From a virus, in the IMG/VR virus record IMGVR_UViG_3300025093_000059, positions 1 through 36,494 of that record: a stretch of 36,494 bases of DNA. One strand, 5' to 3'. Under the pieces are notes generated by a model, which did not search any database, was not told the DNA's origin, and saw nothing but the letters and a program-made list of their open reading frames with translations. The position numbers and the translations under genes are program-made. Positions 731-4,436 of this stretch are shown piece after piece. Positions within the stretch are counted from its first letter, which is position 1; every line of letters starts with the position of its first letter.

Positions 731-1080
731 AAAACAGGTGAATCTTTTGTCTTGCTAACATCCACATGGATAAATTCTTTAGCAATTCCCATACGGCTGA
801 ACTGACTACGCAGCACACCGACCAGATAATCTCTTTCGCCAGAGTCACTGCAAAAGACATCTACCGCTTCTCCATCTATATGCGAAGAAGTGGCGGACCC
901 ACCGATCTTGGAATTGTGTGAAATACACCGGACCCCACTAACAACCCGGATAGGCTTGCCAAGAATGTCACGGACCTTTTGCAGCTTCTCAACCAACTCC
1001 GCACTAATATTGTTACTGCCACAACCGCATTTACACTCAAACTCGTCTTGGGCGAAGTTTTTGGTTAGCTGGACTGTCAT
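718..1080 (-). CDS. Peptidase M15 family endolysin
   Basis: A 120-residue zinc peptidase of the M15A type (D-alanyl-D-alanine carboxypeptidase / phage endolysin family). The N-terminus has the typical F-x-C-x-C pattern (FECKCGCG, residues 14-21). Zinc ligands and catalytic residues are visible as S-x-H-x-x-G-x-A-x-D (His67, Asp74) and the late HVD motif (His105, Asp107). By family knowledge it cleaves peptide cross-links in peptidoglycan for host lysis. There is no separate cell-wall binding domain and no signal peptide, so it needs a holin to reach the wall; the holin-like gene at the left edge is a candidate. It overlaps the zinc-ribbon gene upstream by 44 nt. Confidence 0.92.
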   Translation of the reverse strand: MTVQLTKNFAQDEFECKCGCGSNNISAELVEKLQKVRDILGKPIRVVSGVRCISHNSKIGGSATSSHIDGEAVDVFCSDSGERDYLVGVLRSQFSRMGIAKEFIHVDVSKTKDSPVLWVY

Positions 1081-1267
1081 TCAAAGTTTCTCTAAAATCA
1101 TTTGAGTCAAGCCACTCACCGTAGCGACCCAGGCACATACAGTTGCCACACTTACAATGGTAATAATCAAAGTCGTGTTCAAATATCCTCGTCACATAAA
1201 CGGGAGTCTTGTTCCCGCATTTCGAGCAAGTGACTGGCTTCTTCTCTTTCGACAATTCTTTCGACAT
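1037..1267 (-). CDS. Small zinc-ribbon protein
   Basis: I place the start at the internal ATG at 1265-1267 (MSKELSKEKK), giving 76 residues, because the upstream part of the open frame overlaps another gene and looks unconstrained. The core has the Cys pattern of a zinc ribbon: TCSKCGNKT near residues 14-22, then YHCKCGNCMC about 20 residues later. It overlaps the gene upstream by 89 nt and the endolysin downstream by 44 nt, so one boundary may be wrong; the Cys spacing is the main argument that it is real. Probably a nucleic-acid-binding or structural small protein; function unknown. Confidence 0.6.
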   Translation of the reverse strand: MSKELSKEKKPVTCSKCGNKTPVYVTRIFEHDFDYYHCKCGNCMCLGRYGEWLDSNDFRETLNDSPANQKLRPRRV

Positions 1268-1457
1268 CCCCTGGCACTTTGCAACTCTTCCAATTTGCCT
1301 TAATAACAGCAGCAAATATCGGCCAGCTAGATGGAACGCCAACTCCGTTAAGCGGATCAGACTTGAGATACTCATTCGCATCATGTACAATCTCTGGACC
1401 TTCCCTGGGACGATCCCGAACAACCCTCAACTTCCTAGTGTATCTTTTTGTAGACAC
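1179..1457 (-). CDS. Hypothetical protein, 92 aa, first gene of the left operon
   Basis: Starts at a GTG (1455-1457), about 45 nt downstream of the predicted start of transcription from the strong promoter at 1509-1537. The first 20 residues are very basic (STKRYTRKLRVVRDRPR), followed by a hydrophobic patch (SSWPIFAAVIKANW) and an acidic tail. The last 30 residues overlap the zinc-ribbon gene, so the true end may be functionally shorter. No family recognised. Its place as first gene of the unit suggests early or constitutive expression. Confidence 0.5.
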   Translation of the reverse strand: MSTKRYTRKLRVVRDRPREGPEIVHDANEYLKSDPLNGVGVPSSWPIFAAVIKANWKSCKVPGDVERIVEREEASHLLEMREQDSRLCDEDI

Positions 1458-1481
1458 CTCATATCCAGACTTATCTTTTAG

Positions 1482-1511
1482 TTGACACTTCTCATCCTAC
1501 TGTGTTATATT
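1482..1511 (+). promoter_or_regulatory. Sigma70 promoter, rightward, overlapping the leftward one
   Basis: -35 TTGACA (1482-1487), 18-nt spacer, -10 TATATT (1506-1511). It would start near 1518 and transcribe the zinc-ribbon gene at 1566. The -35 boxes of this and the opposing promoter lie in 12-bp perfect inverted repeat arms, 1476-1487 (TTTTAGTTGACA) and 1532-1543 (TGTCAACTAAAA). The two promoters share the -10 region, so RNA polymerase can hold only one at a time. Confidence 0.65.
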
Positions 1512-1537
1512 ATACACATAACTTAACCGTTTGTCAA
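1509..1537 (-). promoter_or_regulatory. Consensus sigma70 promoter, leftward
   Basis: On the minus strand, -35 TTGACA (1532-1537), a 17-nt spacer and -10 TATAAT (1509-1514): a perfect consensus match. Transcription should begin near 1502 and reach the GTG at 1457, serving the endolysin cluster. Its -10 box overlaps the -10 of the opposing rightward promoter. Confidence 0.85.
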
Positions 1538-1565
1538 CTAAAAAAGACACTATAATCAAGTGTTT

Positions 1566-1727
1566 ATGAAAAAGGATACAATCTGTATAGAATGCGAAGA
1601 AACTTCAGGCGAGGAAGTGGGGGTAGAAATATCAATGGGGAATGTATATAGAAAGTGGGTATGCAGGATATGTGGCGAAAGATGGTATACCCAGGACGAT
1701 ATCCCGCCAGAAAACATGAAAAACTAA
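1566..1727 (+). CDS. Small zinc-ribbon-like protein, 53 aa
   Basis: An open frame of 53 codons (ATG 1566-1568, TAA 1725-1727). The product begins MKKDTICIECEETSGEE and carries two Cys pairs, C-I-E-C (residues 7-10) and C-R-I-C (33-36), the layout of a zinc ribbon, with an aromatic ERWYTQDD segment after the second pair. There is no clear ribosome site, and a TATAAT at 1551-1556 lies only 9 nt before the ATG, so a nearly leaderless transcript is possible besides one from the promoter at 1482-1511. First gene of the rightward small-gene region. Function unknown. Confidence 0.6.
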   Translation: MKKDTICIECEETSGEEVGVEISMGNVYRKWVCRICGERWYTQDDIPPENMKN

Positions 1728-1734
1728 CGCCAAA

Positions 1735-1764
1735 ATTTCCTTTAGAATCAACGATTAAGGAAAT
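1735..1764 (+). terminator. Possible weak terminator hairpin
   Basis: Perfect 8-bp arms ATTTCCTT (1735-1742) and AAGGAAAT (1757-1764) with a 14-nt loop, 7 nt after the stop of the gene at 1566-1727. The tract after it (AGTTTATAT) is only partly T-rich, so termination would be weak. Confidence 0.35.
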
Positions 1765-1790
1765 AGTTTATATGTAGGAGTATATTTTAC

Positions 1791-1819
1791 TTGACTTTTA
1801 GGGGAATTTATGGTATAAT
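1791..1819 (+). promoter_or_regulatory. Strong sigma70 promoter for a structured leader
   Basis: -35 TTGACT (1791-1796), 17-nt spacer, -10 TATAAT (1814-1819). Transcription should begin near 1826. More than 200 nt of leader, holding three hairpins, lie between this start and the next gene at 2038, so the transcript probably has a regulatory 5' part. Confidence 0.8.
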
Positions 1820-1897
1820 ATTCTTTTAAAGAAAAGAAATATTAAGTTAGATTTAGTATATTTTAATTCTGGTTATTACGCAAGTTGTTTTGACTTT

Positions 1898-1970
1898 ATT
1901 CCCGTTAGGGAATTATATGTAGTCGAGTTTGCTTTTTAACTCGACAGGGTTCGGGTCTTTTTCCGAACCC
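1898..1970 (+). ncRNA. Leader RNA with tandem hairpins (put-like candidate)
   Basis: The 310-nt gap before 2038 holds three perfect hairpins in the leader of the promoter at 1791. The first is ATTCCC/GGGAAT (1898-1903 with 1908-1913). The second is GTCGAGTT/AACTCGAC (1922-1929 with 1938-1945). The third is GGGTTCGG/CCGAACCC (1947-1954 with 1963-1970). The last two have 8-bp stems and 8-nt loops ending in TTTTT, and one unpaired A (1946) separates them. Two stem-loops divided by one nucleotide is the published layout of HK022 put antitermination RNAs. Neither stem is followed by a T-run, so they are not ordinary terminators. A smaller hairpin lies at 1993-2006. The antitermination role is an inference. 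Confidence 0.5.
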
Positions 1971-2037
1971 CAGCCTATACGGCCACGACTCTGTCTACAG
2001 GTAGACCAAAACACCCTCAACCATTGGCGACTTCTAA

Positions 2038-2250
2038 ATGTCCTTCCATCATTCATTTGAAAACCCTGAAGAAACCTTATCAATGGAAGAAGCTATTGAT
2101 CAAGGATATGAATATTTTTTTGAAGTTAACTTTACCATTGGCGGTCATTCATATTCCTTCAACGAAATGTATAAAGAAGTAAATCCTGAAACAATTGTTA
2201 ATTTCTTTGAAAGGGTCGCCAAGGATGCTATAGACCTGGCGGAATCGTAA
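2038..2250 (+). CDS. Hypothetical acidic protein, 70 aa
   Basis: Starts at ATG 2038 (MSFHHSFENPEETLSMEEA) and ends with an acidic tail (KDAIDLAES). Rich in Glu, Phe and Tyr with a short Gly-His-Ser patch in the middle; no membrane segment or Cys cluster. Small, strongly acidic early proteins are common among phage host-takeover and anti-defence proteins, but no family is recognised. The ribosome site is poor. It lies about 70 nt after the tandem hairpins and belongs to the transcript from 1791. Confidence 0.55.
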   Translation: MSFHHSFENPEETLSMEEAIDQGYEYFFEVNFTIGGHSYSFNEMYKEVNPETIVNFFERVAKDAIDLAES

Positions 2251-2458
2251 AGTGGGAGCGGACGTGTACAACAAGATAAAGTTGATGGAATGTATGAACT
2301 TGAACATATCGAAATCTGACCGCCAAAAATCCGGGGGGTGGGGGTCAACTTTTTTCAAATCCAGAACCTTGATTAATAAGGTATTAATCGTTTTCAACGC
2401 CAGACTATTGAAGATTAATTCATTTATATTCAATGAATTAGCTACCACCCACCCTATT

Positions 2459-2478
2459 TTGTGTTGTGATTGTGTTGT
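2459..2478 (+). repeat. Tandem pair of TTGTGTTGT, third copy
   Basis: Nonamer TTGTGTTGT at 2459-2467 and again at 2470-2478, an 11-bp period. The same pair with the same period and orientation occurs at 10883-10902 and 11064-11083, on both sides of the putative attP. Here it overlaps the predicted start of the gene at 2466-2804. Likely a protein-binding site, for the integrase or a regulator. Confidence 0.7.
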
Positions 2479-2804
2479 CAACCACCGATAATCCGCCAAA
2501 CTATCAAGGCCGTGGTAATCCCTACTCGTGGAATCGTGACGAGTTCGGCAGATTCAAGCCGACCGAATCCAGTCTAACGATTAAAGAACGCCTTTCCACT
2601 AAAAAGAAAGCTTTGGTTACAGTCGGCTTCAATCCCAAGGAGAAGCAGAAAATAGTCATCCTTGCCAAATCCCTCGGCCTTTCCCACTCTGAATTATGTG
2701 CTTCAATAATCCTTGGTTACATTGACGACATCCTTCTGCAAGTCAATGATCAATTGGCGAATATTAAAAATCCTCCCAAGCTTCCCGACAATTCTAATAA
2801 ATAG
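2466..2804 (+). CDS. Putative DNA-binding (ribbon-helix-helix-like) protein
   Basis: 112 residues if the GTG at 2466 is used; GTG 2472 and TTG 2475 are alternatives and no ribosome site decides. The N-terminal 45 residues are polar and rich in Asn, Arg and Pro. From about residue 48 the pattern KKALVTVGFNPKEKQKIVILAKSL and then SHSELCASIILGYIDDIL looks like a strand followed by two helices, as in ribbon-helix-helix proteins. The start region overlaps the TTGTGTTGT pair, so expression may be controlled by whatever binds there. DNA binding is inferred from pattern alone. Confidence 0.55.
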   Translation: MIVLSTTDNPPNYQGRGNPYSWNRDEFGRFKPTESSLTIKERLSTKKKALVTVGFNPKEKQKIVILAKSLGLSHSELCASIILGYIDDILLQVNDQLANIKNPPKLPDNSNK

Positions 2805-2847
2805 AATTTCCGCTGAGATGTTTTCTTTGCTTTGAATCCAATTAACA

Positions 2848-2874
2848 TTGTCAGCGTTGTCAGCGTTGTCAGCA
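2848..2874 (+). repeat. Three tandem 9-bp repeats (TTGTCAGCG)
   Basis: TTGTCAGCG at 2848-2856 and 2857-2865, and TTGTCAGCA at 2866-2874, head to tail without spacers. They lie 57 nt upstream of the -35 box of the promoter at 2931. This looks like an iteron-type binding array for an activator or repressor; a 9-bp period does not keep sites on one helix face. Confidence 0.6.
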
Positions 2875-2930
2875 ATTTTCCCCAGGCTGAATTAATCCGT
2901 ATTTTCTTTTAAAAAATATTCATTTTCCTG

Positions 2931-2959
2931 TTGACAAAATATACTGGAAAATGTATATT
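2931..2959 (+). promoter_or_regulatory. Strong sigma70 promoter with internal palindrome
   Basis: -35 TTGACA (2931-2936), 17-nt spacer, -10 TATATT (2954-2959). The spacer and -10 contain AATATAC (2938-2944) and its complement GTATATT (2953-2959), very like the operator in the leftward promoter at 14674-14702. It drives the genes at 2997 and 3140, probably under the same repressor. Confidence 0.8.
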
Positions 2960-2996
2960 CCCCTTATTATGTACAACACTAAACAAGGGGGAATAA

Positions 2997-3140
2997 ATGC
3001 CTAAATTAAAAGATTTGATCTTTCCGAAACCAAAAAAATACACAAAAAAAGAGTATGAAGATTTTGCCAAATCAATTGAAAGGGCAATAAAAAAAGAATT
3101 GTGGATTAAAAATACTCAAAAAATCAAGGGGGAAAAATAA
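2997..3140 (+). CDS. Small basic protein, 47 aa
   Basis: ATG 2997-2999 follows a strong ribosome site (AAGGGGGAA, 2984-2992), about 37 nt downstream of the promoter at 2931. The 47-residue product (MPKLKDLIFPKPKKYTKKEY) is very Lys-rich, with an amphipathic stretch in the middle. Its stop TAA shares an A with the ATG of the next gene (TAATG), so the two are translationally coupled. No family recognised; a small nucleic-acid-binding early protein is possible. Confidence 0.65.
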   Translation: MPKLKDLIFPKPKKYTKKEYEDFAKSIERAIKKELWIKNTQKIKGEK

Positions 3141-3595
3141 TGAGTTTTAAAAAATTTCAAGAGTCTAAAAAATTTATTACTGATAAAGATGATCCTACAT
3201 TGCGTGGTTTTATTTATTTTTCTCAACCGGATCATTCGCCATATTGTTATGAAAATCTTTTCATTGAATTAAATTTCAATCCGACAAAGGGAAATAAATA
3301 TTGCCTAACAATTTTAAATGATTCCTTTGGTTCGGATGATCTGGAATTGTTAGAAAAAAAACTGTACTTTTTTGCCATGGGCGAAGGGTGGGAAGATTTT
3401 TCTAATATATCTACGAAATTAAAACAGGTCAATATAGATTCTGATCAAATTATTCACTACGAATCTTGTGCATATTGTGGATCAGCAATGGATCAAGGGC
3501 AAACGTATTATTTTAATTCTAATGATGATGATGGGGATAATTTTTATTGCCATCCATCATGCGTTGAAATCCATCATTTAATTATTAATGAATAA
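3140..3595 (+). CDS. Hypothetical protein with C-terminal zinc-binding motif
   Basis: 151 residues, start coupled to the preceding stop. The C-terminal third holds C-A-Y-C (around residues 110-113) and Y-C-H-P-S-C (136-140), a likely zinc site, separated by an acidic Asn/Asp-rich loop (NSNDDDGDN). The N-terminal part is Phe/Lys/Asp rich and shows no domain I can name. The ribosome site is AAGGGGGAA again. The zinc-binding role is inferred from Cys spacing only. Confidence 0.65.
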   Translation: MSFKKFQESKKFITDKDDPTLRGFIYFSQPDHSPYCYENLFIELNFNPTKGNKYCLTILNDSFGSDDLELLEKKLYFFAMGEGWEDFSNISTKLKQVNIDSDQIIHYESCAYCGSAMDQGQTYYFNSNDDDGDNFYCHPSCVEIHHLIINE

Positions 3596-3597
3596 AT

Positions 3598-3635
3598 AAA
3601 AAATCCCCCTTATCAATTGGCGTTGATCAAGGGGG
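3598..3635 (-). terminator. Rho-independent terminator for leftward transcription
   Basis: On the minus strand, CCCCCTT plus a bulged G plus ATCAA pairs with TTGATAAGGGGG, a 12-bp stem with a 6-nt loop (CGCCAA), followed by A and six T residues. It would stop leftward transcripts from the 5000-10867 unit before they run into the rightward genes. On the plus strand it lacks a downstream T-run. Confidence 0.65.
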
Positions 3636-3644
3636 AATAAATCC

Positions 3645-3690
3645 ACAAGGGATTTTAGCAAACTTGTGACGGCTTGCTAATTTCCCTTGT
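3645..3690 (+). promoter_or_regulatory. Long hairpin in the leader of the gene at 3714
   Basis: Arms ACAAGGGA-TT-TTAGCAA (3645-3661) and TTGCTAA-TT-TCCCTTGT (3674-3690) pair over 15 of 17 positions around a 12-nt loop. The hairpin ends 11 nt before the ribosome site at 3702-3709. It has no T-run, so control of translation or RNA stability is more likely than termination. Confidence 0.6.
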
Positions 3691-3713
3691 ATCACGTTTA
3701 CAAGGGGGAAACA

Positions 3714-4436
3714 ATGAAATTACTCAACGTTGACAGTAATGCAAAAACTGTAAAAGGTCAAAAGAAAGGGTTTTTAACAGGTATTTTATATTTAGCACCT
3801 TATACATTGGCAAATCGTCAAAACGTTTGCCAATTTGCTACAAATGGTTGTAAAAAATCATGCTTATATTTTGCTGGCAGAGGGGCGTTTAACAATGTTC
3901 AATCCGCCAGAATAAGAAAAACTCAAATGTTTTTTGATGACCGGGAAATATTTTTACATCTCTTAAAAAAGGATATTGAAGCTTTAATCAGGAAAGCAAA
4001 TAAATTAAATCTAATCCCAGTGATAAGGCTCAACGGAACATCTGATATTAATTGGGAAAAAGTTTATTTCAATGAAAACATTAAATTAAATGTTTTTGAA
4101 TTATTTAGTGATGTTCAGTTTTACGATTACACTAAAGATTCAATGAAGTTTTATAATAATGATATTCCCAATTATCATTTAACTTTTAGCCTTTCAGAGG
4201 ATACGGATAATAATTTTTTTCACGATACCCTAACACTAAAAAATAAGAATATTTCCGTTGTATTTCAAAACGATTTACCAGACAGGTTTTTAGGCTATGA
4301 GGTTATTAATGGCGATTTAAACGACCTGCGTTTTTTAGATAAGCCCGGAACGATTGTAGGATTATCCGCCAAAGGTAAGGCTAAAAAAGATCAGTCCGGG
4401 TTTGTAGTTAAGGGGGAATCTCTTGACTATGCTTAA
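3714..4436 (+). CDS. Conserved phage protein with C-x6-C-x3-C motif
   Basis: I choose ATG 3714 (240 residues) over the upstream TTG because AAGGGGGA lies 4 nt before it. The pattern matches a widespread phage family of unknown function that I know as DUF7227-like. It has an N-terminal Cys triad (VCQFATNGCKKSC, residues 29-41), AGRGAF with SARIRKT, then RLNGTSDI, YDYTK and, near the C-terminus, GLSAKGKAKKDQSGF. The Cys triad suggests a metal or iron-sulfur site and the motifs are spread like an enzyme barrel, but no activity is established. It is preceded by a long leader hairpin, a sign of dedicated control. Confidence 0.75.
   Translation: MKLLNVDSNAKTVKGQKKGFLTGILYLAPYTLANRQNVCQFATNGCKKSCLYFAGRGAFNNVQSARIRKTQMFFDDREIFLHLLKKDIEALIRKANKLNLIPVIRLNGTSDINWEKVYFNENIKLNVFELFSDVQFYDYTKDSMKFYNNDIPNYHLTFSLSEDTDNNFFHDTLTLKNKNISVVFQNDLPDRFLGYEVINGDLNDLRFLDKPGTIVGLSAKGKAKKDQSGFVVKGESLDYA

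Follow-up and report, generated by a model that had tools for sequence, protein, structure and literature searches.

To our knowledge, very few RNA elements act on RNA polymerase directly, with no protein involved, and put of phage HK022 is the best studied of them. The put RNA binds the zinc-binding domain of the RNA polymerase β' subunit and needs no phage protein to suppress terminators in cis, an activity blocked by mutations in that domain. Bulges and non-canonical pairs in its stems make contact with the polymerase, and its spacer base G35 pairs with A9, substitutions abolishing the anti-pausing activity (PMC9378689). The two HK022 sites start at about +2 (putL) and about +270 (putR) (PMC9378689). 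The DNA analysed here, a stretch of 36,494 nucleotides that we call the window, contains an early leader that is put-like in layout but not in descent, and that represents a conserved kind of structured leader RNA.

The phage and its rightward early operon

Judged by its genes, the window represents part of a marine podovirus genome. It encodes T7-like tail and internal virion proteins, a RecE-like exonuclease and an annealing protein, and further a primase/helicase, an integrase and an M15 endolysin. Since its capsid protein shares 46% identity with the Pelagibacter phage Baldr protein and 43% with the HTVC010P counterpart, we regard the phage as a distant relative of the HTVC010P-type pelagiphages. 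The genome is probably incomplete, because the two ends of the window do not overlap and no terminase or portal gene was identified in it. No relatives of the window primase were found in bacterial genomes.

Nearly all genes point leftward. A short rightward early operon begins near 1566, where a zinc-finger protein is encoded, and again at 2038, past the leader; small uncharacterised early proteins are present. Overlapping divergent promoters occupy 1482-1537, a perfect TTGACA-17-TATAAT leftward and TTGACA-18-TATATT rightward. The features of the leader and of the genes that follow it are these (L numbers denote loci of other phages):

1791 to 1819, plus strand: sigma70-type promoter TTGACT-N17-TATAAT predicted to drive the leader, matching 11 of 12 consensus positions, with TG before the -10 element
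1826 to 2037, plus strand: untranslated structured 5' leader RNA of about 210 nt, its start placed from the -10 element
1898 to 1913, plus strand: upstream hairpin ATTCCC-gtta-GGGAAT, from leader folding
1922 to 1945, plus strand: hairpin I, a perfect 8-bp stem with the 8-nt loop UGCUUUUU, from sequence, shuffles and folding
1946, plus strand: single-base spacer A, read from the sequence
1947 to 1970, plus strand: hairpin II, an 8-bp stem (9 bp with a G-U pair) with the loop GUCUUUUU, from sequence, shuffles and folding
1993 to 2006, plus strand: hairpin III, GUCUA-cagg-UAGAC, which aligns across the four type-A leaders
2038 to 2250, plus strand: first gene past the leader, encoding a 70-residue acidic protein with homologues past the leader in L085, L219 and L225
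2466 to 2804, plus strand: next gene, encoding a 112-residue ribbon-helix-helix-like (NikA-like) protein conserved in L085, L219 and L089

As a lone query against viral contigs the 2038 protein gave no matches, its alignment returned only the three loci already known, and no isolated phage with the gene was found.

Several repeats lie in the same region. The sequence CAAGGGGGAA recurs at 2984, 3125, 3628 and 3701, several copies standing just before start codons of the rightward operon; with up to one mismatch there are 7 copies against 3 expected, 6 of the 7 on the plus strand within 1633-4418. A stable hairpin at 3604-3636 (CCCCCTT with AAGGGGG), between the ORF 3140-3595 and the GP88 gene, would mask a ribosome-site-like repeat on the plus strand and is terminator-like on the minus strand. 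Exact copies of CCATTGGCG occur at 2021, 2135 and 4581, all three in the rightward early region only, and the related TCGCCAAT is present in the leaders of L089 and of L177's contig; CCATTGGCG is a possible operator, its total count up to one mismatch being not above chance.

A hairpin pair in an untranslated leader

Hairpin I reads GTCGAGTT-tgcttttt-AACTCGAC and hairpin II GGGTTCGG-gtcttttt-CCGAACCC, each a perfect 8-bp stem around an 8-nt loop whose 3' end is TTTTT, with a single A between the two. The sequence-only reading had described exactly this arrangement and had placed it about 100 nt past a consensus promoter start. Hairpin I begins 103 nt after the promoter at 1791-1819, which puts it about 95 nt after the predicted transcription start; the first gene follows about 68 nt downstream of the pair.

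The pair is far beyond chance. Its 49 nt fold with -26.8 kcal/mol (z = -7.1), a value reached by none of 200 shuffles, and in folding energy it ranks first among the adjacent hairpin pairs of the window's plus strand. One pair of perfect 8-bp hairpins at most 3 nt apart was observed in the whole window, against 0.007 expected from dinucleotide shuffles and 0.003 from a Poisson calculation. In 2.3 Mb of other phage loci, stems of 7 bp or more with a gap of at most 3 occur in 11 pairs; both stems measure 8 bp or more in 3 of these, and none of the 3 has a gap of 1. Given so low an expectation per genome and the absence of such a pair from the other loci, chance is not an adequate explanation.

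The leader as a whole (1826-2037) also folds better than random sequence, with z = -3.5 and none of 200 shuffles as good. Inspection revealed no conserved leader peptide in it; a possible 17-codon reading frame in L219 was rejected because it is not kept in L085. The structured promoter-proximal element proposed from the sequence is supported as part of an untranslated early leader. Rfam gave no match at gathering score anywhere in the window, and within 1780-2060 only sub-threshold matches on the minus strand.

Leaders in related phages

Most of the genome is common to the window, L085 (37,973 b) and the circular L089 contig (40,019 b), the last being circularly permuted with an end overlap of about 130 nt. 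Following the divergent M15 gene in more contigs located further leaders: L219 (contig of L181), L225/L212 (L199), L211/L223 (L204) and L215/L221 (L177). A near-identical copy of the window leader was not found, the contig of L172, with an identical capsid protein, having no significant match to 1080-3000. Promoter, hairpin leader and 2038-like gene follow one another in the same order in the window, L085, L225 and L219, and the promoter itself has aligned counterparts in L085 and L219. With the window leader, those of L089/L204 and of L085/L225/L219 share their site in the genome, a promoter and a series of hairpins, but the sequences of the single hairpins and some of the spacings are different.

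The strongest adjacent hairpin pair of L219 (1933-1950 and 1952-1980) lies inside its leader, the two hairpins exactly 1 nt apart. The first hairpin, GGTGGGG-ttta-CCCCACC, is followed by one T (spacer U) and then by the second, GGAAACC-GA-GTGTTTCTTAC-GA-GGTTTCC. This second hairpin is shared by L085, where one A-U pair has become G-C by a double change; the first hairpin of L085, one base (C) away, is weak and vanishes when a shorter stretch is folded. Local folding of the L089 leader likewise yields hairpins one base apart (L168 701-662 and 660-643). Thus the layout of two hairpins and one base, as first read from the window, recurs in strong form in the syntenic L219 and L089, and only in these two, with stem sequences unrelated among the three. 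The 1-nt spacing is not universal, since the L204 leader, homologous to that of L089, has its first two hairpins about 9 nt apart and the G014 leader appears to lack hairpin I.

Some stems show compensatory changes. From L089 to L204, CTCCTGC/GCAGGAG has become CTCTTGC/GCAAGAG and GTTCTG/CAGAAC has become GTTCTT/AAGAAC, and the consensus fold of the two contains no broken pair. The outer pair of hairpin III is G-C in the window and L219 and A-U in L085 and L225. Compensation is thus seen in hairpin III and in the L089/L204 stems; the stem sequences of the window are unlike those of its relatives and the spacing varies. For hairpins I and II themselves, the leaders are few and too highly divergent for a formal covariation test, and the correspondence of individual hairpins is uncertain because MAFFT aligns hairpin I of the window, not hairpin II, with the conserved CGAGUGUCUUUUA hairpin (hairpin II) of L085 and L219, via CGAGU..CUUUU. 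Taking together the hairpin leaders of the relatives, the compensatory changes between L089 and L204 and the G-C to A-U exchange in hairpin III, we consider it very likely that the leader is a genuine structured RNA.

Three other observations were made in these contigs. L168 (minus strand, about 760-480) and L211 (upstream of the M15 gene) contain a second type of structured leader, with at least five serial hairpins, UUUA or UUCA loops, compensatory changes and no Rfam match. Directly after its 2038-like gene, L219 (contig IMGVR_UViG_3300025141_001769, 2383-2490, plus strand) matches the Rfam tmRNA family with 65.6 bits over only 108 nt; both ends are present, the tag-coding part is absent and ARAGORN makes no call, so that this is possibly a mini-tmRNA or an integration-related remnant. 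The apex of the L085/L219 hairpin has a single match in bacterial genomes, within what looks like a lepA-like coding region in a Comamonadaceae MAG, where it forms no stable hairpin and was dismissed as chance.

Relation to put and possible functions

Like put, the window pair (and that of L219) consists of two stem-loops with one base between them; it is untranslated, it follows soon after an early phage promoter, and no protein antiterminator was found with it. Unlike put with its G35, the spacer is A1946 in the window, U in L219 and C in L085. The stems of the window are perfect 8-bp helices without the bulges, triple helix and non-canonical pairs of put, and their distance of about 95 nt from the start site is that of neither putL nor putR. 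A covariance model built from eight sequences, HK022 putL and putR plus six put-like sites from other phages found by BLAST, recovered putL (95.9 bits) and putR (46 bits), both members of the training set, and found nothing in the window, L085, L219, L168, L211, L221 or L225 at E up to 10. With no model match, a spacer other than G and stems devoid of put's internal features, membership in the put family was rejected; on these comparisons the window RNA is not put by descent. Of the put-like site claimed at the outset, the layout stands and the family does not. The RNA may still work like put. Put-like sites in the P22-like Salmonella podophages UPF_BP1 (KX776161, 1523-1600) and S9-5 (MW722521, 38190-38252) sit under protein-gene annotations and bear no antiterminator-RNA label.

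The leaders of the window phage and its relatives probably influence how host RNA polymerase reads the early genes. Our leading reading, a tentative one, is that the leader antiterminates as an RNA acting on that polymerase. Hairpins I and II would form the core of the structured 5' leader of the rightward early operon, which as nascent RNA would act in cis on the elongating enzyme. The two adjacent helices would fold while leaving the exit channel, and across a gappy and poorly translated early operon the polymerase would then resist pausing or termination (possibly of the Rho-dependent kind), in the manner of HK022 put yet not as its relative. We observe the hairpins, the promoter, the untranslated leader and the structured leaders of syntenic relatives, and we infer the contact with RNA polymerase and the antitermination.

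We favour antitermination because of the position and structure of the leader, the host promoters and the lack of any antitermination protein found. The phage, as far as its sequence tells, uses host-type promoters. No single-subunit RNA polymerase was detected in the window and five relatives, in a search that was silent in control genomes too, and no NusG domain was found in the same set. As first noted from the window, no N or Q protein is visible: none occurs among the phage-family matches listed (best 25 of 32) for this partial genome. N proteins diverge strongly. Against antitermination we count the missing put-model match, the unconserved spacer base, a 1-nt spacing that some relatives do not have, the uncertain match of individual hairpins between leaders, and the lack of a convincing terminator further on. 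On the plus strand of the operon, downstream of the leader, we found no convincing intrinsic terminator, the candidate at 2317-2347 being weak; the target of antitermination would therefore have to be Rho or pausing. A bolder form, which we regard as doubtful, is a protein-free put-like RNA of independent origin, group-wide in marine podoviruses without an RNA polymerase of their own, in which the polymerase would recognise two helices one base apart and not a sequence.

The chief rival is an attenuator, possible though somewhat unlikely, in which the U-tracts of the loops serve as terminator tails in folds that exclude hairpins I and II, so that early transcription is cut or continued according to folding, a ligand or a bound protein. 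Two such folds can be drawn:

1880 to 1937, plus strand: alternative terminator-like fold, an imperfect 12-bp stem ending at 1932 and followed by UUUUU, excluding hairpin I
1939 to 1961, plus strand: alternative terminator-like fold, the 3' arm of hairpin I paired with the 5' arm of hairpin II and followed by CUUUUU, excluding both hairpins

As in attenuators based on intrinsic terminators, these folds end in U-tracts and exclude both hairpins. The best fold of an RNA ending at U1937 is a terminator-like stem directly before five U (-15.7 kcal/mol, z = -3.8), which refolds to hairpin I once 1938-1945 have been made. A terminator scan flags 1939-1956 with the tail CTTTTT on the plus strand, and L085 has a weak CACTC-N9-GAGTG followed by UCUUUU. 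However, the second terminator is itself weak (1939-1956 plus CUUUUU, -5.6 kcal/mol) and hairpin I would fold before it; in this region terminator-like sites, 2 against 3.6 in shuffles, are not commoner than expected. Unlike in known attenuators of this kind, the alternatives are not kept in L219, where at most 3 pairs remain for the second terminator and the first loop has no U-tract, and neither a ligand nor a leader peptide is apparent.

A leader bound by a phage protein is also a close rival, if on the unlikely side. The hairpins would be binding sites through which a phage or host protein changes transcription or translation, either like a nut site or in autoregulation by an early product, the acidic 2038 protein or the 1566 zinc-finger protein. 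Leader and 2038-like gene co-occur in the window, L085, L219 and L225, small uncharacterised early proteins are encoded, and the hairpin apex is nearly identical in L085 and L219 although a stem pair changes. Like lambda-type nut sites (boxA/boxB with N), the hairpins sit in the leader RNA of the first early operon, before a gene for a small early protein; unlike in that system, no N-like protein is among the matches listed, and the first protein is acidic, which is not the character of N-type RNA-binding proteins. The hairpin sequences of the window also differ from those of its relatives.

A role of the leader chiefly in the stability of the early mRNA or in its translation, with no action on RNA polymerase, we consider unlikely. 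All relatives do carry a series of stable hairpins in the 5' untranslated region of their first early operon, but the pair is not at the 5' end itself, being about 95 nt away from it, and it stops about 68 nt short of the start codon; in L085 and L219 Shine-Dalgarno-like sequences are far from the hairpins. A DNA-level site (operator, replication or packaging) or no function at all is very improbable: perfect inverted repeats do adjoin divergent promoters, with ribbon-helix-helix proteins encoded nearby, but pairing persists between relatives whose stem sequences differ completely, and compensatory changes and G-U and G-A pairs fit RNA better.

Whatever its function, this phage RNA is structurally conserved, so far undescribed and without an Rfam entry. 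If antitermination is the correct reading, it would be a second RNA of this type, unrelated to put, and would reveal the required shape rather than a required sequence. It would then also explain read-through of the early operon in phages that rely on the RNA polymerase of their host.
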